Below, piece after piece: positions 25,550 through 34,498 of a DNA stretch of 37,943 nucleotides. The notes below the pieces were generated by a model. The model was not told where the DNA came from and did not search any database. It saw only the letters and a program-made list of their open reading frames with translations. Position numbers and translations under genes: made by a program. This DNA is from an uncultured Bacteroidales bacterium (GTDB taxonomy: Bacteria > Bacteroidota > Bacteroidia > Bacteroidales > Bacteroidaceae): positions 1 through 37,943 of the forward strand of contig CACZCZ010000022.1 of NCBI GenBank assembly GCA_902779845.1, written 5' to 3'. Position 1 is the first letter of the stretch. Each line of letters opens with the position of its first letter.

Positions 25550-27190
25550 TTGGCATCCTCCTCTCCTTTGTCTAATGATTCGACGCCCCTTCCCAACAGG
25601 GAGGGACAGGGGGGAGAGTCTCTGAAGCGAAAGACAGCCCAAGGCCTCCTTTGGGGCGGCTTCAGCAACGGCATGGTACAGCTGCTGGGGGCGATCTTCG
25701 GGCTCTGGCTGATCAACATCCTCACCCCCGAAGACTATGGAAAGATGGCAGCGCTGGTAATCTTTTCCAACATCGCCAGCGTGCTACAGGAGAGCGGTTT
25801 CACGGCGGCCTTAGCCAACAAACGGGAGCCTACCCATGAAGAGTACAACGCCGTCTTCTGGTTCAATGTCCTCGTAGGCATCATCCTCTACATTCTCCTT
25901 TTCCTGACCGCCCCCTTTATTGCCGATTTCTACCACGAGCCCGTCCTCTGTCCGCTGGGCCGCTTCGCCTTCCTCGGCTTCGTCCTTTCATGCTTCGGCA
26001 CCGCCCAGCGTGCTTATCTCTTCGGCCATCTGATGGTGAAGCAGACGAGCATTATGCAGATGGCCTCCATCACCCTCTCCGGCATCGTCGGCGTCTGCCT
26101 CGCCTATGCAGGCTTTGCCTATTGGGGCTTGGCTGCCCAAAGCCTCGTTTATGTCGGTTCAATCACAGCCTTCGCTTGGTTCTTCTCGCCTTGGCGACCC
26201 ACTCTTCCTGCGGTGCAGGAAGAAGTGAAAAATGAAAAAGTGAACAATGAAAAATATAAGTTACTTGGGCCTCTTAAGGACTGTCCTGTACAAAAGAGAA
26301 AATCTTATTTTTCACTCTTCATTCTTTCACTTTTCACTATTCTCCAGCCCGCCTGGCAGATGTTCGGTTTCTCGTCCAAGCTGCTTGTCAACAGCCTCGC
26401 CTTCCAGTTCAACAACAACGCCTTTGGTGTCCTTCTGAACCGTTTCTTCCCCGGTGGTCATGTTGCCGGCATCTACAGCAATGCCCGTAAGTGGGACGAT
26501 ATGGCCATTGCCACCATTGGCGGTATGGTGCAGGGGGTCGCGCAACCGGTGTTAAGGGAAGCGGCCAGCACAGGACTTGTAGCCGTTTTCCGCAAGCTTC
26601 TCCGCTTCACCTGCTTTGTCAGTTTCCCCTGTCTCTTAGGCTTGGCGCTGATTGCCGAGGACTTCATCGTCCTGCTGGCAGGCGAGAAATGGCACGCCTC
26701 CGCCACCCTTCTTTCCCTGCTCTGTATCTATGGTGCCCTCTCGCCCGTGGTGACGCTCTACTCCAATCTCGTCATCTCGCGCGGGCGCTCCACTATTAAT
26801 ATGGTCATTGGCCTCTTGAACTGCGTTCTGGTATGGGGTGGCATTATTGTCCTCCACGCCTTAAGCTACGACCTAACGGCTATGGTCATCTTCTATGTTG
26901 CTCTGAACATCGCGTGGCTCTTCGTGTGGCAGGCCTGCGCCCGCCGTCTCATCGGACTTCGCTGGCGTCACGCCATCAAAGACATCGTTCCGTTCTTTGT
27001 GTTCGCTTTCGCTGTGATGGCAGCAGCCTATTTTGCCACCCACTCACTGCCCATCTCCTGGCTCCGTATGTTTCTTCGCATCCTCATCGCCGTCATCGTC
27101 TATGTAGGCACTCTTTGGATGGCCAACGCACAAATTCTGCGCGAGAGCTTCGACTATATTCTCCGGCGACACCACGACATCCATACATAA
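25550..27190 (+). CDS. Polysaccharide flippase (Wzx-type, MOP superfamily)
   Basis: 546 residues from TTG 25550, two bases after waaA. No ATG precedes the conserved start (KRKTAQGLLWGGFSNGMVQLLGAIFGLWLI), so a rare start must be used; the first 24 residues include PLPNREGQGGES, translated from a GC-rich palindrome at 25586-25615. The rest has about 12-14 membrane helices with landmarks INILTPEDYGKMAAL, ESGFTAALANKREPT and MFGFSSKLLVNSLAFQFNNNAFGVLLNRFF. It should move lipid-linked glycan across the inner membrane. A hydrophilic-then-hydrophobic segment (about residues 225-263, KNEKVNNEKYKLL...SYFSLFILSLFTIL) is coded by an in-frame inverted repeat and seems inserted. Confidence 0.88.
   Translation: MASSSPLSNDSTPLPNREGQGGESLKRKTAQGLLWGGFSNGMVQLLGAIFGLWLINILTPEDYGKMAALVIFSNIASVLQESGFTAALANKREPTHEEYNAVFWFNVLVGIILYILLFLTAPFIADFYHEPVLCPLGRFAFLGFVLSCFGTAQRAYLFGHLMVKQTSIMQMASITLSGIVGVCLAYAGFAYWGLAAQSLVYVGSITAFAWFFSPWRPTLPAVQEEVKNEKVNNEKYKLLGPLKDCPVQKRKSYFSLFILSLFTILQPAWQMFGFSSKLLVNSLAFQFNNNAFGVLLNRFFPGGHVAGIYSNARKWDDMAIATIGGMVQGVAQPVLREAASTGLVAVFRKLLRFTCFVSFPCLLGLALIAEDFIVLLAGEKWHASATLLSLLCIYGALSPVVTLYSNLVISRGRSTINMVIGLLNCVLVWGGIIVLHALSYDLTAMVIFYVALNIAWLFVWQACARRLIGLRWRHAIKDIVPFFVFAFAVMAAAYFATHSLPISWLRMFLRILIAVIVYVGTLWMANAQILRESFDYILRRHHDIHT
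25586..25615. repeat. GC-rich palindrome at the flippase N-terminus
   Basis: CCCCTTCCC faces GGGAGGG and GGGGGG across short turns. It is translated as PLPNREGQGG ahead of the conserved flippase core. Confidence 0.55.
26224..26339. repeat. In-frame inverted repeat inside the flippase gene
   Basis: The left arm 26224-26260 (AGTGAAAAATGAAAAAGTG...) and right arm 26304-26339 (...TCTTTCACTTTTCACT) are imperfect reverse complements of about 36 bp around a 43-bp centre. Removing the segment would join WRPTLPAVQE to the conserved WQMFGFSSKLL. Confidence 0.7.
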
Positions 27191-27205: not shown

Positions 27206-28117
27206 GTGAAAGAGAATCTGATGATATTAGAAGGTGGCCTCGGCAACCGAATGCGTGTGGCTGCTGCAGCCTATGCGATGTCACGTCGCAGCGGCATCCC
27301 CTTCCGTGTCCTTTGGACAAAACAATGGGGCATGCATTGCCGTTTCGACGAGCTGTTCAAGAGCCTTGCCACCGCGGATTCTCCCCTATTCACCCTTCGC
27401 GATGCTCGCGGCCCCGAGCGTTTCCTTTTCGCCCGTCCCACGGCCAAGAACCTCCATCTGCCTCGTCTCTTGCAGCGGCTACGCTATCGACATATCATCT
27501 ACTCTCCGCAGATATGGTATCTCAATCGCGATGGCTTTGACTACGAAGCGTGGTTCCGACAGGGCGGCACCTTGATGACCGCCTACCGCGACTTCTGTCC
27601 ATGGACGAGCGCTGACCTGCGCTTCCTCTTTCAGCCTAATGAAGAAGTACAGCACCTCATCGATGAGCGCACCGCAGCTTTTTCTCCTCATTCCATCGGC
27701 GTTCACATCCGTCGCACCGACCACCAGCAAGCCATTGACGAGAGCCCCATTGAGCTTTTCTTCGAGGCAGTAGATAAAGAGATACAGCAATGTGAAAAGG
27801 CTCTCTCCCCCACAGGGGGCGCGGGGAGAGGGGCTACCATTTATCTTGCCACCGACGACGAAGCCACGAAGGAAGCTATGCGACGCCGCTACGGCCAGCG
27901 CATCATCACGTCCAACGCAAAAGCCACACGCGAATCGACCGACGGCATCCGCGATGCCCTCGTAGAGATGTTCGCCCTCAGCCGCACATGCCACATCTAT
28001 GGCTCGGCCGGTTCCACCTTCTCACCCATCGCGGCCTGCCTCGGCAACATCCCCATCACCATCGTGCAGCGCGACGGCAAGGGTACAGTGGACTTGCTCT
28101 GTCAGGAGACAAGCTGA
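27206..28117 (+). CDS. Fucosyltransferase-like glycosyltransferase (GT11/GT23-like)
   Basis: 303 residues from GTG 27206; ATG 27221 would remove KENLM from the first strand. The start LMILEGGLGNRMRVAAAAYAMS and the motif IGVHIRRTDH (near residues 164-173) resemble alpha-fucosyltransferases of the GT11/GT23 type, where HxRRxD binds GDP-fucose; IYLATDDEATKEAM and HIYGSAGSTFSPIAACLG are further family-like motifs. It probably adds fucose or a related deoxysugar to the glycan handled by the upstream flippase, 15 nt away. KALSPTGGAGRGA, between two conserved parts, is coded by a palindrome (27803-27830). The acceptor is unknown. Confidence 0.7.
   Translation: MKENLMILEGGLGNRMRVAAAAYAMSRRSGIPFRVLWTKQWGMHCRFDELFKSLATADSPLFTLRDARGPERFLFARPTAKNLHLPRLLQRLRYRHIIYSPQIWYLNRDGFDYEAWFRQGGTLMTAYRDFCPWTSADLRFLFQPNEEVQHLIDERTAAFSPHSIGVHIRRTDHQQAIDESPIELFFEAVDKEIQQCEKALSPTGGAGRGATIYLATDDEATKEAMRRRYGQRIITSNAKATRESTDGIRDALVEMFALSRTCHIYGSAGSTFSPIAACLGNIPITIVQRDGKGTVDLLCQETS
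27803..27830. repeat. GC-rich palindrome inside the fucosyltransferase-like gene
   Basis: CTCTCCCC at 27803-27810 and GGGGAGAG at 27823-27830 are perfect complements with a 12-nt centre, translated in frame as SPTGGAGRG. Confidence 0.75.
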
Positions 28118-28153: not shown

Positions 28154-29161
28154 TCACCGTGCTGCGTAAGTCACGCCCCATTGATAAACCTGCTCGATGA
28201 AAGGAGCCGGGATGTGATGCTGACGCAGCAGATCGCGAATGAAACGCAGACCAAAGGGAAAGTCCTCGATGAAATAGCGACTGGTGAAATCGATGCGCCA
28301 GCCATCGGGGGTCTCGGTCATCGGAGCTTGTATGCCATGGAAAGCTTGGATAGTGCGTATTTTGCGCGTGAGAGAAGCTGCATCAACGGATTCGTAGTAG
28401 GTGAGCAATGGAGGAATCGCTGTTTGCGAAATGCCCAAGCAGTCTGTGAGCTGCATAAACTCAGCATCCATCTGCATAATCATCTCCGAAGCCTCAAGCG
28501 TCCAGTCGTCATAGAACAAAAAAGGAGCCGGGAATGTGTCCTGCTCGTGACCCCGCCACATCGTGAAGAGACGTCCCGTGTGAAGGATGGGGTTGCTGTT
28601 GCTAAGGCTTACTTCGTAGAAGTTGTTAAGCAAAGCTACAGGAGTGCGGAAGAGTTGTTCTAAGGTTAGACGCAGCAACGCTGGGTCATCAGCGTGTTCA
28701 ATCGCCACATGCAGTTGAGGCTTGTAGCCTAAGAGCTGTGCGCGATGACCGTAAGTGCTGATGCGCGAGATGAACGGCACGCGCTGGAAGCCAAACAGCG
28801 GCTGCGAGGCAGGCAGCAGGTTGTGCGCGGCAAAGAAGAACCCCGTGTTGGCAACAATGGCGCCGACAGCAGTCGCAGGCGACAGCCACGGACGAATCTC
28901 CTGTAAGACAGCTTCAATGGAAAAACCGGGCAGACATAGCAGAACGATGTCGGCTTCGGGGATGACTTCGCGGGCATCGGACGTGACACACGACAATGTA
29001 CCCGTGAAGCAGTGTCCATCGGGGTCGATGACCTCGGGCTGCAGGCTCCATTGTTCGGGACGGCGGGTGAGCAGGCTCACCTGGGTGTCCGGCTGTGATG
29101 CCAGGAATCCTGCACACACGGAGCCCAGATTGCCACCCCCGCAGATTGTTATCTTCAGCAT
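28154..29161 (-). CDS. Opine (octopine/nopaline) dehydrogenase family enzyme
   Basis: 335 residues. The Rossmann motif CGGGNLGSVCAG is at 7-18, and a second strand carries the acidic-free LLTRRPEQW, suggesting NADP preference. After ADIVLLCLPGF (70-80), the C-terminal helical domain contains SNSNPILHTGRLF (187-199) with the Asn-Pro-x-x-His arrangement of octopine dehydrogenases (His194 as likely catalytic base). Such enzymes reductively join the amine of an amino acid to an alpha-keto acid such as pyruvate. Its ATG overlaps the stop of the upstream fusion gene (shared ATGCTGA, 29161..29155), so the two are translationally coupled and probably work in one pathway. A role in making a glycan substituent is inference. 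Confidence 0.8.
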   Translation of the reverse strand: MLKITICGGGNLGSVCAGFLASQPDTQVSLLTRRPEQWSLQPEVIDPDGHCFTGTLSCVTSDAREVIPEADIVLLCLPGFSIEAVLQEIRPWLSPATAVGAIVANTGFFFAAHNLLPASQPLFGFQRVPFISRISTYGHRAQLLGYKPQLHVAIEHADDPALLRLTLEQLFRTPVALLNNFYEVSLSNSNPILHTGRLFTMWRGHEQDTFPAPFLFYDDWTLEASEMIMQMDAEFMQLTDCLGISQTAIPPLLTYYESVDAASLTRKIRTIQAFHGIQAPMTETPDGWRIDFTSRYFIEDFPFGLRFIRDLLRQHHIPAPFIEQVYQWGVTYAAR

Positions 29162-30966
29162 AATTCGCGCAGTGCCTTGAGCAATCGGTTATTGTCCTTG
29201 GTGTCACGCACGGCGATGCGGACATAGTTTTTGCCGCCAAAAGCTTTTTTGTAGCCGCAGTCCTTGATGAGAATGTTCACGCGTTTGATGAGCAGGATGG
29301 CCAGTTCAGAAGATGTGAAGCGGTCGGTAACCTCGCAAAGGAAGTAGTTGGCCTCGGTGGGAATCACACGCAGGAAGGGTATCGCGCGCAGCCCTTCCTC
29401 GAAGCGGGCGCGCTCCTCCTGGAAGAGCTGGCAGGCACGGTGGTAGTCGCCCTCATACTTGCCATAAATCTGCATATAGTACTCTCCGAAGGAATTGATG
29501 TTCCAAATGCTCACCTCGCTGCGCACGGCTTTGATGAGTTCACGGTCGGCCGATGCCAGCACGCCCAAGCGCAGGCCCGGGACTCCATAGCTTTTGGAAA
29601 TACTCTTCATGACGATCATCGTGGGGTGTGCCTCCAGCGTCTCATCCTGCAGCAGTGTGCCATCGGGGTAGCACGAAGCGAAATCCACGAACGACTCATC
29701 CACGAGAAAGCGGATGCCGCGCTGCTCACACCACGTAGCCAGACGCAACACATCGGCACGAGGGATGTAGTTGCCGCTGGGGTTGTCAGGATTAATGAGC
29801 AGCAGCATGGCGATCGACTTGTCAGCGTAGAAGCGCATCAAGTCGTCAGCTGTGTAGGAGAAATCGGCGTTCGAGGGTTGGAAAATCACCAATTCATCGG
29901 CTTCCTTTCGGTTGGGATATTCCTCAAAGGTGGGATAGACCACGCCCAAGCGGCCCGGCGTGCGCTCCATCACCACCTTGATGAGTTCTGCAGCGCCGTT
30001 GCCTGGCACGGCATAGTCCTGCGAGATACCGAAGTACTTGCCAGCAAGCAGGGAGTTGACTTGCATGCCGGAGGGGTACTGCGTGAGCAGGGCATCGAAG
30101 CTGGAGAGCAGTTCCTGCTTCAGACGCGGTGAGGGGAAATAGGGATTCACCAGATAGTTGAAGTCCAGCATCCCGGGGAAGCGCCAGAAGCCGCCGAAGC
30201 GTCGCGAGTAGCTGCGCCACAAGTCCTCGCCCTCGGCAAAGAGCGTCTCGGCGATGTCCAAATCCTGAATGTCATCTATCTCATACCACTTCAGATCGTG
30301 GATGGGCAGCGCCTTCAGGTCGGTGCGGTCGAGGAAGGTGAGCACACGCAGCACCTGCTCGTAGTATTCATTCTCGCCCATCGACTTGACATAGACCTCC
30401 AGGAATGGCACATACTTCGTGCACAGGAATTCACGGCTGAACTTATAAACATTCACCGTCTTGTAGTATTGGTCGCGTTCCTCGAAACGGAAGGAGCTCT
30501 TCGGCACAAAGCTAGTGATGCAGCCGTCGTCATCCAGACGCACCATCGTGCCGTCCATCCACGACTCGTACTTTGCCACAAGGGCCAGGTTGGGCCATTC
30601 GTTGTCCAAGAGCAGCGGGAAGAGGCGTTCGTCGAGAATCAGGTCGCTCTCGATGAGTAGCGTGTCGTCCTCCATCAGTTGTTCGCGCGCCAAAGCCAGG
30701 GAGTAGATGTTGTTGGTGCGGTCATAGATCTCATTGACGACATATTCTATGTTCAAGTCCGGGAAGTGGGCATCGATGTGAGCACGGAGGCCGTCGGCCT
30801 GATAGCCTACGACAACCACAATGCGCGTCAGGGGCAATGTGGAGAGTTGGTTAAGGAGGCGGTCGATGAGACGAGTGGCGCCCACTTTGACCATACATTT
30901 GGTTTGCTTGCGGGTGAGTTCGCCAAGGCGGCGTCCCATGCCCGCAGCCAGGATAATGGCTTGCAT
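29155..30966 (-). CDS. LicC-like nucleotidyltransferase fused to a class I/II PLP enzyme
   Basis: 603 residues. Residues 1-240 are a nucleotidyltransferase: AIILAAGMGRRLGELT (3-18), KQTKCMVKVG (20-29), NEIYDRTNNIYSLALAR (78-94) and ESDLILDE (106-113) match the CTP:phosphocholine cytidylyltransferase LicC and its phosphonate relative PntC more than sugar enzymes. Residues about 265-603 are a fold-type I PLP domain like HisC/CobD: INPDNPSGN (391-399), LVDESFVDF (421-429), SISKSYGVPGLRLG (455-468) with Lys458 as the Schiff-base lysine. One protein could thus make an amino-alcohol or aminoalkyl phosphate (by transamination or, as in CobD, decarboxylation) and activate it as the CDP form. LicD across the divergent promoter would be the transferase. 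No PEP mutase gene is present here. Confidence 0.85.
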   Translation of the reverse strand: MQAIILAAGMGRRLGELTRKQTKCMVKVGATRLIDRLLNQLSTLPLTRIVVVVGYQADGLRAHIDAHFPDLNIEYVVNEIYDRTNNIYSLALAREQLMEDDTLLIESDLILDERLFPLLLDNEWPNLALVAKYESWMDGTMVRLDDDGCITSFVPKSSFRFEERDQYYKTVNVYKFSREFLCTKYVPFLEVYVKSMGENEYYEQVLRVLTFLDRTDLKALPIHDLKWYEIDDIQDLDIAETLFAEGEDLWRSYSRRFGGFWRFPGMLDFNYLVNPYFPSPRLKQELLSSFDALLTQYPSGMQVNSLLAGKYFGISQDYAVPGNGAAELIKVVMERTPGRLGVVYPTFEEYPNRKEADELVIFQPSNADFSYTADDLMRFYADKSIAMLLLINPDNPSGNYIPRADVLRLATWCEQRGIRFLVDESFVDFASCYPDGTLLQDETLEAHPTMIVMKSISKSYGVPGLRLGVLASADRELIKAVRSEVSIWNINSFGEYYMQIYGKYEGDYHRACQLFQEERARFEEGLRAIPFLRVIPTEANYFLCEVTDRFTSSELAILLIKRVNILIKDCGYKKAFGGKNYVRIAVRDTKDNNRLLKALRELC

Positions 30967-30992
30967 AAGGAGATGTTTTTGTTATTTTCGCT

Positions 30993-31001
30993 GCAAAAGT
31001 A
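30993..31001 (-). promoter_or_regulatory. -7 element for the LicC-PLP fusion gene
   Basis: TACTTTTGC on the minus strand at 31001..30993. The position of its -33 element falls within the 7-bp repeats at 31009-31036; no TTTG is present there. Confidence 0.55.
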
Positions 31002-31008
31002 AAGAAAA

Positions 31009-31036
31009 GTTTAAAGTTTAAAGTTTAAAGTTTAAA
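31009..31036. repeat. Four perfect 7-bp repeats between divergent promoters
   Basis: GTTTAAA repeats exactly four times, plus a partial unit. It fills the space between the two -7 elements (30993-31001 and 31045-31053) and covers the -33 position of both. It is the reverse complement of the AAACTTT heptad seen elsewhere. Confidence 0.85.
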
Positions 31037-31044
31037 GAAATATG

Positions 31045-31053
31045 TACTTTTGC
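31045..31053 (+). promoter_or_regulatory. -7 element for licD
   Basis: TACTTTTGC, start near 31059, about 22 nt before the ATG at 31081. It excludes the upstream in-frame ATG at 31042. Confidence 0.6.
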
Positions 31054-31080
31054 ACCGAAAAAAACGAAACTATAATAAAA

Positions 31081-31896
31081 ATGGTTCTTTCAGAAACCGA
31101 AAATGCGGCCTTGCGCCAGCGATTTGCCCCCGAGGGTTCAACGTTATGGCGCCAGCAGCAACGTATGCTGGAAATGATGGTGTGGCTCGACGACGTCTGC
31201 CGCCGCCATCGCATCCCCTACTGGCTGGGATCTGGTACGTTGTTGGGTGCCGTGCGTCATGGTGGCTTCATTCCGTGGGATGACGATGTTGACATCGAGT
31301 TCCGGCGCGAGGACTATCCCCGCCTGCTCCAGGTGCTATCGCAGGAGACGGCAGGCACCGACTACGCCCTGCAGACCCACGACACCGACCCGGGCTACTT
31401 CTTCACCTATGCCAAGCTGCGCGACCGCCGCAGCCGCCTGCAGGAGCAAACCGGCTACGACCGCATCTTCACCTACCAGGGCATCTACCTCGACCTCTTC
31501 GTGCTGGAACCCATGACCAAGCCCCTGCATTGGCTCTCCAACCGCACCTTCGGCATTATCTATAAGGTGTTGAGGAATCCCGAGTACAACACGCAGCAGC
31601 TGATTCGCAAAACCGACTCGATTTATCGCGTCAACATGCGCTTTGTGTTCCCCCTCCTGCGTCTGCTTTCGCGTCTGTTCAGCCCCCGGCTGCTCACCTA
31701 CTCGCCCGGCATCCCCTTCGAGAGCCAGCGCGACCCAGCTGAGCTTTTTCCCCTTTCCACCGTCGTCTTCGAGGGCCATCGCTTCTCTGCGCCGCACAAT
31801 CCCGAGGCCTATCTGCGCCGGATGTTCGGCAACTGGCAGCGTCTGCCGGACATAGACAAGATCTCCACCCACACAGCAAGATTGGAGTTCACATAA
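31081..31896 (+). CDS. LicD family phosphotransferase
   Basis: 271 residues from ATG 31081. The family signature is clear at residues 46-74: PYWLGSGTLLGAVRHGGF followed by IPWDDDVDIEF, with the metal-binding Asp cluster; DLFVLEPM and a C-terminal PEAYLRRMFGNW...P follow as in other LicD proteins. LicD proteins transfer phosphocholine, or in relatives other phospho-alcohols, from a CDP carrier to surface glycans. The expected activated donor would come from the divergently transcribed LicC-like fusion. No choline kinase or transporter is in the window, so choline itself is not supported as the substituent. Confidence 0.9.
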   Translation: MVLSETENAALRQRFAPEGSTLWRQQQRMLEMMVWLDDVCRRHRIPYWLGSGTLLGAVRHGGFIPWDDDVDIEFRREDYPRLLQVLSQETAGTDYALQTHDTDPGYFFTYAKLRDRRSRLQEQTGYDRIFTYQGIYLDLFVLEPMTKPLHWLSNRTFGIIYKVLRNPEYNTQQLIRKTDSIYRVNMRFVFPLLRLLSRLFSPRLLTYSPGIPFESQRDPAELFPLSTVVFEGHRFSAPHNPEAYLRRMFGNWQRLPDIDKISTHTARLEFT

Positions 31897-31980: not shown

Positions 31981-33057
31981 ATGAAACAGCGTCTTGAATG
32001 GCTCGACGCCCTGCGCGGCTTTACGATGCTAATGGTGGTCACCAACCACGTTTATGGCTTCGGTTTCGCCACGAACACGAAGTATTCGATGTTCATGTCG
32101 CTGTGCCTGCTGTTCCGCATGCCGCTATTCTTCTTCATCAGCGGCTTCCTCGCCTACAAGGCGTCCTTCAGCTGGAACCTGCGCGACACCGGGCAGCTCA
32201 TCGCCAAGAAGTTCCGTGTGCAGATCATCCCCACCGTCGTCTTCATGACAGCTGAGATAGCTCTCACGGCAAAAGTGTTCTGGGATAAGTTCAACGAGGC
32301 ATGGATGAGTCCTACGAAAGGCGGCTACTGGTTCACCCTCGTCCTCCTCGAGATGTTCATCATCTACTATGCGGTGTGCTTTATAGCTTCGCTTTTATCG
32401 AGAAAAAAACAGCCCGGTTATTCCAACCTTTCACTCGTTAACCTTTCACTTCTCATTCTTTGGGCTTTCGCCCTCTTCGCCTACGCCACCCTCTATATGC
32501 CCTCGTGGTTCTCGTGGTATAAGGACACCTTCTGGCAGGTGACAAGCCTGACCGAGCTGGCGCGCGATTTCCAGTTCTTCCTTCTGGGCAACCTCGTACA
32601 TCGCTACTGGCCACAGGTGCAACGTCTTCTGGACTCGAAATGGTTTGTGCCGTTGCTGATTTTCATCGCTTTCATCGGAGCCGGCGACTACCTGAAGTGG
32701 CATCTGCTGCGGATGCAATGGGCCAATCTTCCGCGCACCTTGGCGATGTACGCCTTGGTGATGCTCATCTTCGCCTTCTTCCGCAACTATGCCGAATGGT
32801 TCACCAAAGAGAAACGCATCGGCAATATGTTCCAATACATCGGTGTACGCACGCTTGACGTCTATCTCATCCATTATTTCTTCCTGCCCAAACTGCCGGA
32901 TGTAGGCGTATGGTTCAAGGCGCATCCGCACAACTTCGTCCTCGAAGGCACCACAGCCATCCTCCTCGCCTTCCTCGTCATTGCCTTCTCCATCCTCACC
33001 AGCCATGTTCTTCGCATCAGCCCCGTACTCAAGAAATGGCTGTTCGGCAGGGAGTGA
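31981..33057 (+). CDS. Acyltransferase family 3 membrane protein
   Basis: 358 residues. It starts RLEWLDALRGFTMLMVVTNHVYGF, the acyltransferase-3 signature (LDxLRG and an early His), followed by FRMPLFFFISGFLAYK and about ten membrane helices; the C-terminal part has IGVRTLDVYLIHYFFLPKLP. Relatives O-acetylate or otherwise acylate LPS, capsule and other glycans in the inner membrane. Its place after licD suggests it modifies the same glycan. The segment NLSLVNLSLLILWAF is coded by the quasi-repeat AACCTTTCACTCGTTAACCTTTCACTTC. Confidence 0.85.
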   Translation: MKQRLEWLDALRGFTMLMVVTNHVYGFGFATNTKYSMFMSLCLLFRMPLFFFISGFLAYKASFSWNLRDTGQLIAKKFRVQIIPTVVFMTAEIALTAKVFWDKFNEAWMSPTKGGYWFTLVLLEMFIIYYAVCFIASLLSRKKQPGYSNLSLVNLSLLILWAFALFAYATLYMPSWFSWYKDTFWQVTSLTELARDFQFFLLGNLVHRYWPQVQRLLDSKWFVPLLIFIAFIGAGDYLKWHLLRMQWANLPRTLAMYALVMLIFAFFRNYAEWFTKEKRIGNMFQYIGVRTLDVYLIHYFFLPKLPDVGVWFKAHPHNFVLEGTTAILLAFLVIAFSILTSHVLRISPVLKKWLFGRE

Positions 33058-33562: not shown

Positions 33563-34498
33563 TCAACTCATCAACTTCTTGAGCCATCGGAGGAGTTTAC
33601 CGAGGAGGGTGTAGCGAATGCCCCAGTCGTGTAGGGCGGCAGCAAGGGCTGACTCGATGTACGGGTCAGCATGTGGTTCCTGATACTTGAGAGTGAGTGG
33701 GCGGCTGTAAGGCTCGCGGTCATACTCAAAACGCTGAATCCATCGCGTTGGAATGGGGAATCTTCGAAAATGTGTGCCTGCATCCAGACCGATATTGCGA
33801 ACCAGCGTGCGAGCAGGATAGAGACAGAGGCCGTGAGCACGATGAATGGCGATGCCCCAGCAGATGTCCCAGGGGATCGGGTCGCGATCCAGGTGTTTCA
33901 AGCATGGGAATTTACCTCCATACTCAAGCTCTTCCAAGTCCTGCGGCGTGAGCCCCTGCAGTGCCTCTGCACGCGAAGCATAGTGGTGGAAGTGCTGCTG
34001 CCAGCGGTCGCGCCAAGTGCCCCACCCCCAACCGGCCATGAAAGGTGTGAAGTAGGATGACGAATGAGGGTCTTCGATTCTCGTAAAACCACTCACATGC
34101 ATCACACGGGGATCATCGCGATAGAGGCTGAAGGCATCGTTCATGAACTGCAGGAAATAAGGAGCCGTGACGATGTCGTCCTCCAGGACGATAATGGTCT
34201 CATGTTTGGCGAGCACAGCAGCAATGCCCTCGATGATGTTGCGCTCCAAGTAGAAGTTCACGGGGCGCTCCACAATGGTCATACTCAACAAGGAGTGCGT
34301 GCACGCCACCTCCTCCTCGACCTCGTGCAGCACAGCCCGCACGGCGTTCACCTCGGCCCACGATTTTTCATCCTTTCCACCGTCGGAAAAGACATAGAGG
34401 TCGGTCTGCGCAGCCAGCGTATTGTTCAGCAGGGCTCGCAGTGTCGCGCGGGTGTTGTCAGCGCGATTATAGACGAAGAGGGCTACGGGGCTACTCAT
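33563..34498 (-). CDS. GT2-like glycosyltransferase with EDD motif
   Basis: 311 residues. It begins VALFVYNRADNTRATLRALLNNT, typical of GT-A fold enzymes, then DLYVFSDGG (33-41) and the metal-binding IIVLEDDIVTAPYFLQFMNDA (102-122, EDD at 106-108). GWGWGTWRDRW near 155-165 and WDICWGIAIHRAHGLCLYPARTLVRNIGLD follow, as in Bacteroidota glycosyltransferases resembling the GNT-I group. It should add a sugar to a surface glycan; donor and acceptor are unknown. It is convergent with the acyltransferase across the 254-bp palindrome. The promoter at 34537..34505 predicts a transcript starting about at the ATG. Confidence 0.8.
   Translation of the reverse strand: MSSPVALFVYNRADNTRATLRALLNNTLAAQTDLYVFSDGGKDEKSWAEVNAVRAVLHEVEEEVACTHSLLSMTIVERPVNFYLERNIIEGIAAVLAKHETIIVLEDDIVTAPYFLQFMNDAFSLYRDDPRVMHVSGFTRIEDPHSSSYFTPFMAGWGWGTWRDRWQQHFHHYASRAEALQGLTPQDLEELEYGGKFPCLKHLDRDPIPWDICWGIAIHRAHGLCLYPARTLVRNIGLDAGTHFRRFPIPTRWIQRFEYDREPYSRPLTLKYQEPHADPYIESALAAALHDWGIRYTLLGKLLRWLKKLMS

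Follow-up and report, generated by a model that had tools for sequence, protein, structure and literature searches.

What does a bacterium build with a cytidylyltransferase fused to a pyridoxal phosphate (PLP) enzyme, when the fused gene runs into that of an opine dehydrogenase and diverges from that of a LicD phosphotransferase? The question is raised by a stretch of 37,943 nucleotides from an uncultured Bacteroidales bacterium (contig CACZCZ010000022.1; the whole stretch is referred to as the window), for which a preliminary description had proposed a glycan-decoration pathway. The three open reading frames (ORFs) lie exactly where it had placed them and carry the domains that it had named: a fusion of a LicC/PntC-type cytidylyltransferase and a CobD-type PLP enzyme (603 residues; 29155-30966, minus strand), an octopine-dehydrogenase-family imine reductase (ODH; 335 residues; 28154-29161, minus strand) and, divergent from the fusion, a LicD phosphotransferase (284 residues; 31042-31896, plus strand). 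The overlap between the stop of the fusion and the start of the ODH, also noticed at that time, measures 7 bases (29155-29161), and the two motifs that had been singled out, NEIYDRTNNIYSL and ESDLILDE, are both present in the translation of the fusion. Opines, i.e., amines whose nitrogen is capped with a keto acid, are familiar from plant tumours and shellfish muscle; judging from homology and gene content, this module probably makes an N-carboxyalkylated (“opine”) 2-aminoethyl phosphate and attaches it to a surface glycan.

In the proposed route, the PLP half of the fusion would decarboxylate O-phospho-L-serine (Ser-P) to phosphoethanolamine, and the nucleotidyltransferase (NTase) half would convert this with cytidine triphosphate (CTP) into cytidine diphosphate (CDP)-ethanolamine, two steps suggested by homology. 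The ODH or, in other loci, an unrelated reductase of the ornithine-cyclodeaminase family (OCD) would condense the primary amine with a 2-oxo acid, most likely pyruvate, and the imine would be reduced by NAD(P)H to N-(1-carboxyalkyl)-ethanolamine phosphate or its CDP form, as suggested by the chemistry of these families, by the exchange of one reductase for the other and by a phosphonate case described below. Finally, LicD would transfer the phospho-headgroup to a sugar of a Wzx-exported glycan. CDP activation and N-alkylation may come in either order, and the latter perhaps follows the transfer. The identity of the amine, the keto acid and the order of the steps are inferred. The path that had been outlined beforehand, from an amine phosphate through its CDP form and N-carboxyalkylation to transfer by LicD, gained comparative support, and no part of it was refuted. 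That support comes from gene order, co-occurrence, the replacement of ODH by OCD, the fusion of ODH to LicD and the presence of OCD in an aminoethylphosphonate operon, the last three being the strongest evidence.

The fusion protein and its probable amine

Two domains are recognized by Pfam in the fusion, NTP_transf_3 (1.9e-12, residues 3-133) and Aminotran_1_2 (1.6e-28, residues 316-599), and from PDB matches the cytidylyltransferase domain can be placed at residues about 1-245 (30232-30966, minus strand) and the PLP domain at residues about 262-603 (29158-30183, minus strand). The NTase half matches PF12804 and has as PDB relatives the fusion of PntC with a 2-aminoethylphosphonate (AEP) transaminase (PntC-AEPT, 6pd1, 2e-11) and LicC (1jyk, 1.1e-8). 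By homology it belongs with the LicC/PntC cytidylyltransferases, and it would use CTP and an amine phosphate. The PLP half is of class I/II, with no class V model matching at E 0.001, and it is closest by sequence to SMUL_1544 (6oux, 4e-36), an entry entitled “a decarboxylase” and an enzyme which we take to act on Ser-P. CobD comes next (1lc5, 2.7e-30), and histidinol-phosphate aminotransferases (HisC) rank behind both. In NCBIfam, the CobD model TIGR01140 scores the fusion at 173.4 bits (cut-off 290.55) and that of HisC at 119 bits, likewise under its cut-off, so the PLP half is to be regarded as a relative of CobD rather than a CobD. Lys458, described beforehand as intact, is invariant in 33 aligned fusions and aligns with the Schiff-base position of CobD, Lys216. 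The same holds for Asn395, Asp423, Arg466 and Arg583, aligned with Asn157, Asp185, Arg224 and Arg337 of CobD, all five CobD positions being presumably active-site residues.

An AlphaFold2 model of the fusion, built from the alignment of the 33 fusions, reached a mean confidence (predicted local distance difference test, pLDDT) of 86. Over its whole chain the model is matched best by PntC-AEPT (6pd2, 9.8e-30), which spans both halves as two similar folds in a row, yet with a root-mean-square deviation above 21; the best single-domain matches of the PLP half are 6oux, first, and CobD, second. Sequence homology and predicted fold thus place the PLP half closer to 6oux and CobD than to HisC. Could this half make a different amine phosphate, with the rest of the route as proposed? 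The candidates would be serinol phosphate, by transamination of dihydroxyacetone phosphate, and (R)-1-amino-2-propanol phosphate, from O-phospho-L-threonine (Thr-P). The fold class does contain transaminases and, in passages of a study on Campylobacter (PMC12409886), Cj1437 forms serinol phosphate for the capsule. Moreover, the second-best single-domain fold match, CobD, is a Thr-P decarboxylase. Nevertheless, 17 of the positions invariant in the 33 fusions agree with 6oux but not with CobD, compared with 6 that agree with CobD but not with 6oux. SMUL_1544, presumed to act on Ser-P, is the best match both by sequence and by single-domain fold, and OCD is also found in genomes with AEP genes, AEP being an isostere of phosphoethanolamine and not of the other two amine phosphates. 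Either of these two is therefore an unlikely product, and phosphoethanolamine made from Ser-P is the preferred one.

Two reductases at one place and their tie to transfer

The conservation of the module was studied in 92 loci. A scan of genome contigs covering one genome per species (84,980 species) provided the best 80 of 418 related stretches, each of them matching at least residues 1-598 of the fusion; to these, the window and 11 of the 17 loci of a further set were added, the other six being left out since their contigs were already among the scan results. All but one of the 80 stretches are labelled Bacteroidota, mostly Bacteroidales and many of them ruminant-derived, the remaining one being labelled simply “uncultured bacterium”. 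The loci come from related genomes and are not independent. As ORF calls favoured the longest frames, at times antisense ones (e.g., in L056, L057, L104 and L165), reductases were counted by tblastn (E 1e-6) within 3 kb downstream of the fusion on the same strand, and “none” means that no match was centred in this stretch, of which 1.1 kb or more was available. On this basis, 54 loci have ODH, 20 have OCD, one has both (L108), 16 have neither and one could not be assigned because the contig ends. ODH is therefore found beside the fusion in 55 of the 92 loci, which identifies the two as more than chance neighbours, and the lack of conserved co-occurrence that would have refuted the preliminary description is not observed; the genome-level counts given below point the same way, and both together rule out a chance adjacency of fusion and reductase. 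ORFs were called for 71 fusion-reductase pairs; in 59 of these the two genes overlap or are at most 30 bases apart, and in four they are separated by more than 1 kb.

What do these reductases have in common? The ODH of the window matches PF02317 (2e-33; 116 bits, cut-off 30) and, in the PDB, octopine dehydrogenase (3c7a, 6e-21). Its His194, Arg295 and Asp300, invariant in 25 aligned rows, align with His212, Arg324 and Asp329 of 3c7a, the first and last of which we take to be catalytic. It belongs by homology in the octopine dehydrogenase family and would condense an amine with a 2-oxo acid in an NAD(P)H-dependent manner (an AlphaFold2 model of the ODH alone, built with no alignment, had a pLDDT of 40 and was not used). 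OCD is an ornithine-cyclodeaminase/mu-crystallin reductase (PF02423), from a family unrelated to that of ODH, so that ODH as the sole reductase of the module is ruled out. Among its PDB matches is 4m54, presumably SbnB, and the SbnB model scores it at 69 bits, below the cut-off. What the two families have in common is NAD(P)H chemistry on imines. Tauropine dehydrogenase N-carboxyethylates taurine, and octopine and tauropine both derive from pyruvate. According to parts of two papers (PMC4113996, PMC3840593), the family of OCD includes the tauropine dehydrogenase of a sponge. Since taurine resembles phosphoethanolamine, both being 2-aminoethyl anions, this kinship supports the proposed action of OCD on the latter.

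The two reductases have been exchanged repeatedly: when the 74 loci that have a single one of them are mapped onto the tree of all 92 fusions, which was built by a quick method and has 48 of its 89 inner branches starred, 14 changes between ODH and OCD are required. In the window (ODH) and L048 (OCD) the fusions are 92% identical and the gene context is the same, and L045 (ODH) and L043 (OCD) likewise share a context, one that differs from that of the window. That a second family takes the position of the first argues for selection on the reaction and not on the protein, and such repeated swapping at the capping step suggests that the step matters; two reductases of different families that interchange at one place of a pathway point to its chemistry. 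As a separate observation, in L043 and L045 the fusion and the reductase are separated by an amino-acid permease (by Pfam, in L043) and a second, stand-alone LicC-like NTase.

The reductase also appears to be tied to the transfer step. The LicD of the window (PF04991, 2e-39; 136 bits, cut-off 22.6) has a match in 71 of the 92 loci, and 10 of 56 ODH ORFs also contain LicD (L064, L070, L091, L097, L103, L109, L110, L117, L122 and L123). Nine of these proteins measure 590-608 residues; that of L064 has 922 and also matches the glycosyltransferase-like protein of the window at 22%, with no glycosyltransferase domain found in it by Pfam. Both domains were found by Pfam in the two ODH-LicD proteins searched, and the fused state requires at least four changes on the ODH tree. 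Single proteins of this kind link the reductase to the transfer. In six loci with no LicD match (L080, L089, L092, L098, L113 and L119), the second gene downstream of the fusion belongs to one cluster, two tested members of which match the CDP-glycerol glycerophosphotransferase family of Pfam, weakly but over the cut-off.

This arrangement bears on whether the target of the two reductases is ethanolamine or some other amine of the glycan, be it an amino sugar or an amino acid substituent. Such opines do exist in glycans, since portions of a review (PMC10609480) list alanopine (N-[1-carboxyethyl]-alanyl) and N-epsilon-[(S)-1-carboxyethyl]-L-lysine in Providencia O-antigens. However, the reductase tracks the fusion or AEP genes through different glycan loci, is at most 30 bases away from the fusion in the 59 pairs mentioned and shares one protein with LicD in 10 loci, all of which make another amine a decidedly improbable target and favour ethanolamine phosphate or its activated form.

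Genome-level co-occurrence and the phosphonate exception

Does the association hold beyond the loci? Among 101 related genomes, 18 contain a full-length fusion; only 41 of the 101 combine a completeness of 90% or more with a contamination of 5% or less, so absences are weak evidence. Module-type ODH (E <1e-140) is present in 11 genomes, every one of them with the fusion (two weaker matches in G067, at 2.3e-51 and 8e-27, were excluded from the count), and module-type OCD (E <1e-130) in 7, six of them with the fusion. Exactly one module reductase is thus found in 17 of the 18 fusion genomes and in 1 of the 83 others (Fisher 4e-17, a test that ignores relatedness). The fusion genome with neither reductase is G050, and the non-fusion genome with OCD is G033. 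In an even, phylum-wide sample of 395 genomes (E 1e-60), the fusion was found in two, ODH solely in the genome of the window and OCD in none; the module is rare beyond the relatives of the window.

Genome G033 is the informative exception. Its OCD gene is the last of an operon (L139, 1716-7076) that also encodes a PntC-like NTase, a phosphoenolpyruvate (PEP) mutase with an N-terminal cytidylyltransferase-like domain, a phosphonopyruvate decarboxylase and an AEP transaminase, the last three enzymes passing the NCBIfam equivalog cut-offs with 401, 506 and 472 bits, respectively. An aminoethylphosphonate operon that ends in OCD predicts N-carboxyalkyl aminoethylphosphonate as its product, and we know of no glycan that contains it. 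A family sample of 229 genomes added 15 genomes with OCD, 12 of them with the fusion; in the remaining three (G582, G613 and G710), PntC and AEPT homologues precede LicD. The PEP mutase gene lies beside these genes in G710 and directly upstream of OCD in G613, and was not seen in the stretch of G582 that was fetched. Altogether, the 22 OCD genomes divide into 18 with the fusion and 4 with phosphonate genes, in a count that covers OCD carriers only (the OCD gene of one of them, G550, holds an internal stop). The constant element is a predicted cytidine monophosphate (CMP)-activated 2-aminoethyl phosph(on)ate accompanied by a reductase from one of the families to which opine dehydrogenases belong.

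Is the module of the window then a phosphonate pathway itself? The best PEP mutase match in its genome, which is 86% complete, reaches 21.8 bits (cut-off 31.5), so this alternative, which the preliminary description had left open, is not upheld; PEP mutase over the cut-off is also absent from 16 of the 18 fusion genomes. That the fusion is an ordinary PntC-AEP-transaminase enzyme, as its best whole-chain fold match and the phosphonate genes of the four OCD genomes might indicate, is very hard to sustain and was rejected, given that its PLP half is class I/II and CobD-like, whereas AEPT is class V, and that, beside these absences, the other two fusion genomes (G078 and G094) have only partial PEP mutase matches of 34 and 38 bits, over the cut-off, compared with 184 bits in G033.

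Several results weigh against the synthesis and attachment of an opine phosphoethanolamine by this module. Concerning the PLP half, the TIGR01140 score is below the cut-off (173 vs 290 bits), the six positions shared with CobD alone point away from 6oux, and the fold cannot separate decarboxylation from transamination. Concerning the transferase, LicD is unmatched in 21 of the 92 loci, some of them on short contigs. As for the reductase, 10 of the 17 loci lacking one nearby or cut by the contig end have one elsewhere in the genome, in some cases with no glycan genes beside it, and the remaining seven have none: L046, L066 (a genome of 1.3 Mb), the clade L083/L093/L094/L120 and L125, so the reductase is not indispensable. 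An ODH fragment of 41 residues in the genome of L040 was left out of these counts. Both reductases coexist in the genome of L107 and within the locus L108, and ODH was seen with no phosphonate operon in Bacteroidota, where no dedicated search for this pairing was made.

Weighing all this, the proposed route can be generalized, with somewhat better than even confidence, into a picture in which gut Bacteroidota build opine headgroups (2-aminoethyl phosphates, or phosphonates in some strains, that bear an N-carboxyalkyl group) from exchangeable modules: the amine by a Ser-P or a C-P route, ODH or OCD as reductase, and LicD or, in six loci, the CDP-glycerol-transferase-like protein for transfer. 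If true, a zwitterionic headgroup would gain an extra carboxylate, and its charge could affect immune recognition and phage adsorption in rumen and gut. With these loci, the opine-type decoration of bacterial glycans with phosphoethanolamine can be tested on a defined set of genes.

Known systems, distant relatives and flanking genes

Every part of the module is already known in kind (Cj1436, SMUL_1544, LicC/PntC, LicD and opine dehydrogenases). In the Lic-1 system (LicC-LicD), as proposed here, a PF12804 NTase provides the cytidylyl activation and LicD the transfer; unlike there, the headgroup would come de novo from the fused PLP enzyme and its amine would be carboxyalkylated, not trimethylated. 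PntC-AEPT of the Pnt pathway of Treponema denticola (6pd1/6pd2) is likewise an NTase-PLP fusion of similar length that leads to CMP-activated 2-aminoethyl phosph(on)ate, and LicD-like genes near it are mentioned in parts of PMC6697681. That enzyme, however, combines a class V AEP transaminase (a class checked with Pfam on the homologue in L139) with PEP mutase, and the fusion described here a class I, CobD-like domain with no PEP mutase over the cut-off in its own genome. In passages of PMC12409886, Cj1436 of Campylobacter converts Ser-P into ethanolamine phosphate for the capsule, where it is amidated to glucuronic acid and later dephosphorylated. Cj1436 hence shares the proposed Ser-P decarboxylation, and among solved structures that of SMUL_1544 comes closest to the PLP half. 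The Campylobacter route operates, to our knowledge, with neither a CDP donor nor LicD. Octopine dehydrogenase (PF02317) and sponge tauropine dehydrogenase (PF02423) represent the families of the two interchangeable reductases; they serve energy metabolism in marine animals, whereas the reductases of the module are encoded in glycan loci, with ethanolamine phosphate as their proposed substrate.

Has the product been seen before? Reportedly, 2-[(R)-1-carboxyethylamino]ethyl phosphate occurs in the O14 O-antigen of Proteus mirabilis (said to be the work of Perepelov et al., 1999), and we know of no gene assigned to it; with pyruvate as the keto acid, the product of the module would equal this structure, which was not found among the matches listed in a search of the open-access literature. 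Nor were the assembled route, the replacement of ODH by OCD or the opine-phosphonate variant found among the matches listed there, few subscription journals being covered. The novelty claimed beforehand thus stands, within that literature, for the assembled pathway, and falls for the de novo formation of ethanolamine phosphate (Cj1436) and for the NTase-PLP fusion as such (PntC-AEPT).

More distant relatives of the fusion appear in 12 plasmid records, with a coverage of 80% or more and identities of 25-46%; the neighbourhoods in six of these records were inspected. On a plasmid of Rahnella sikkimica (L201, 5980-8458) the relative adjoins a CDP-alcohol phosphatidyltransferase, a possible CDP-amino-alcohol lipid route; on one of Gloeothece verrucosa (L205, 5977-9439) the relative, a class I methyltransferase and LicD follow in series, perhaps for an N-methylated ethanolamine phosphate made de novo. 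Such partners are expected of an enzyme that makes CDP-amino-alcohols. In Fusobacterium vincentii (L200) the glycan locus that contains the relative (46%) also includes LicD, and a DUF1015 protein comes after the relative; the record is labelled as a plasmid and its 2.1 Mb suggest a chromosome. The relatives in Priestia and Pseudonocardia have no such clear partner by annotation, with a weak LicD match nearby in the latter. Among Bacteroidota, a distant fusion (L164, 31-33%) is immediately followed by LicD and has no reductase match within 18 kb. These cases would fit a core of fusion and phosphotransferase to which varied N-modifying enzymes are added.

No OCD match was found on plasmids at E 1e-20. 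The plasmid matches of ODH (23-33% identity) are not close kin of the ODH of the module, and three of their neighbourhoods hold other gene sets: those of L206, L207 and L208 (plasmids of Burkholderia, Paraburkholderia and Mesorhizobium) each contain two octopine-dehydrogenase genes near a tyrosinase gene, to which two of them add genes for a phytanoyl-CoA dioxygenase and a methyltransferase, a system that differs from the module. On a plasmid of Rhizobium sp. 007 (L202, 1-13669), an octopine-dehydrogenase-family gene (27% to ODH) shares its stretch with genes for a PEP mutase, a cytidylyltransferase, a CDP-alcohol phosphatidyltransferase, three class I/II aminotransferases, a methyltransferase and a methylaspartate ammonia-lyase.

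In the window itself, the module is flanked on one side by genes for a Wzx-type flippase (25550-27190, plus strand; PF13440, 8e-54; cluster 3, in 40 of the 92 loci) and a fucosyltransferase-like protein (27206-28117, plus strand; weak PF19745; cluster 9, 9/92), and on the other by those for a membrane acyltransferase (31981-33057, plus strand; PF01757; cluster 5, 17/92) and the glycosyltransferase-like protein (33563-34498, minus strand; weak glycosyltransferase matches below the cut-off; cluster 4, 31/92). A KdtA-like transferase is also recognized by Pfam among the flanks. The predicted flippase, KdtA-like transferase, fucosyltransferase-like protein and acyltransferase would fit a surface-glycan locus. 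Between the divergent fusion and licD genes, the heptamer GTTTAAA is repeated four times in tandem (31009-31036).

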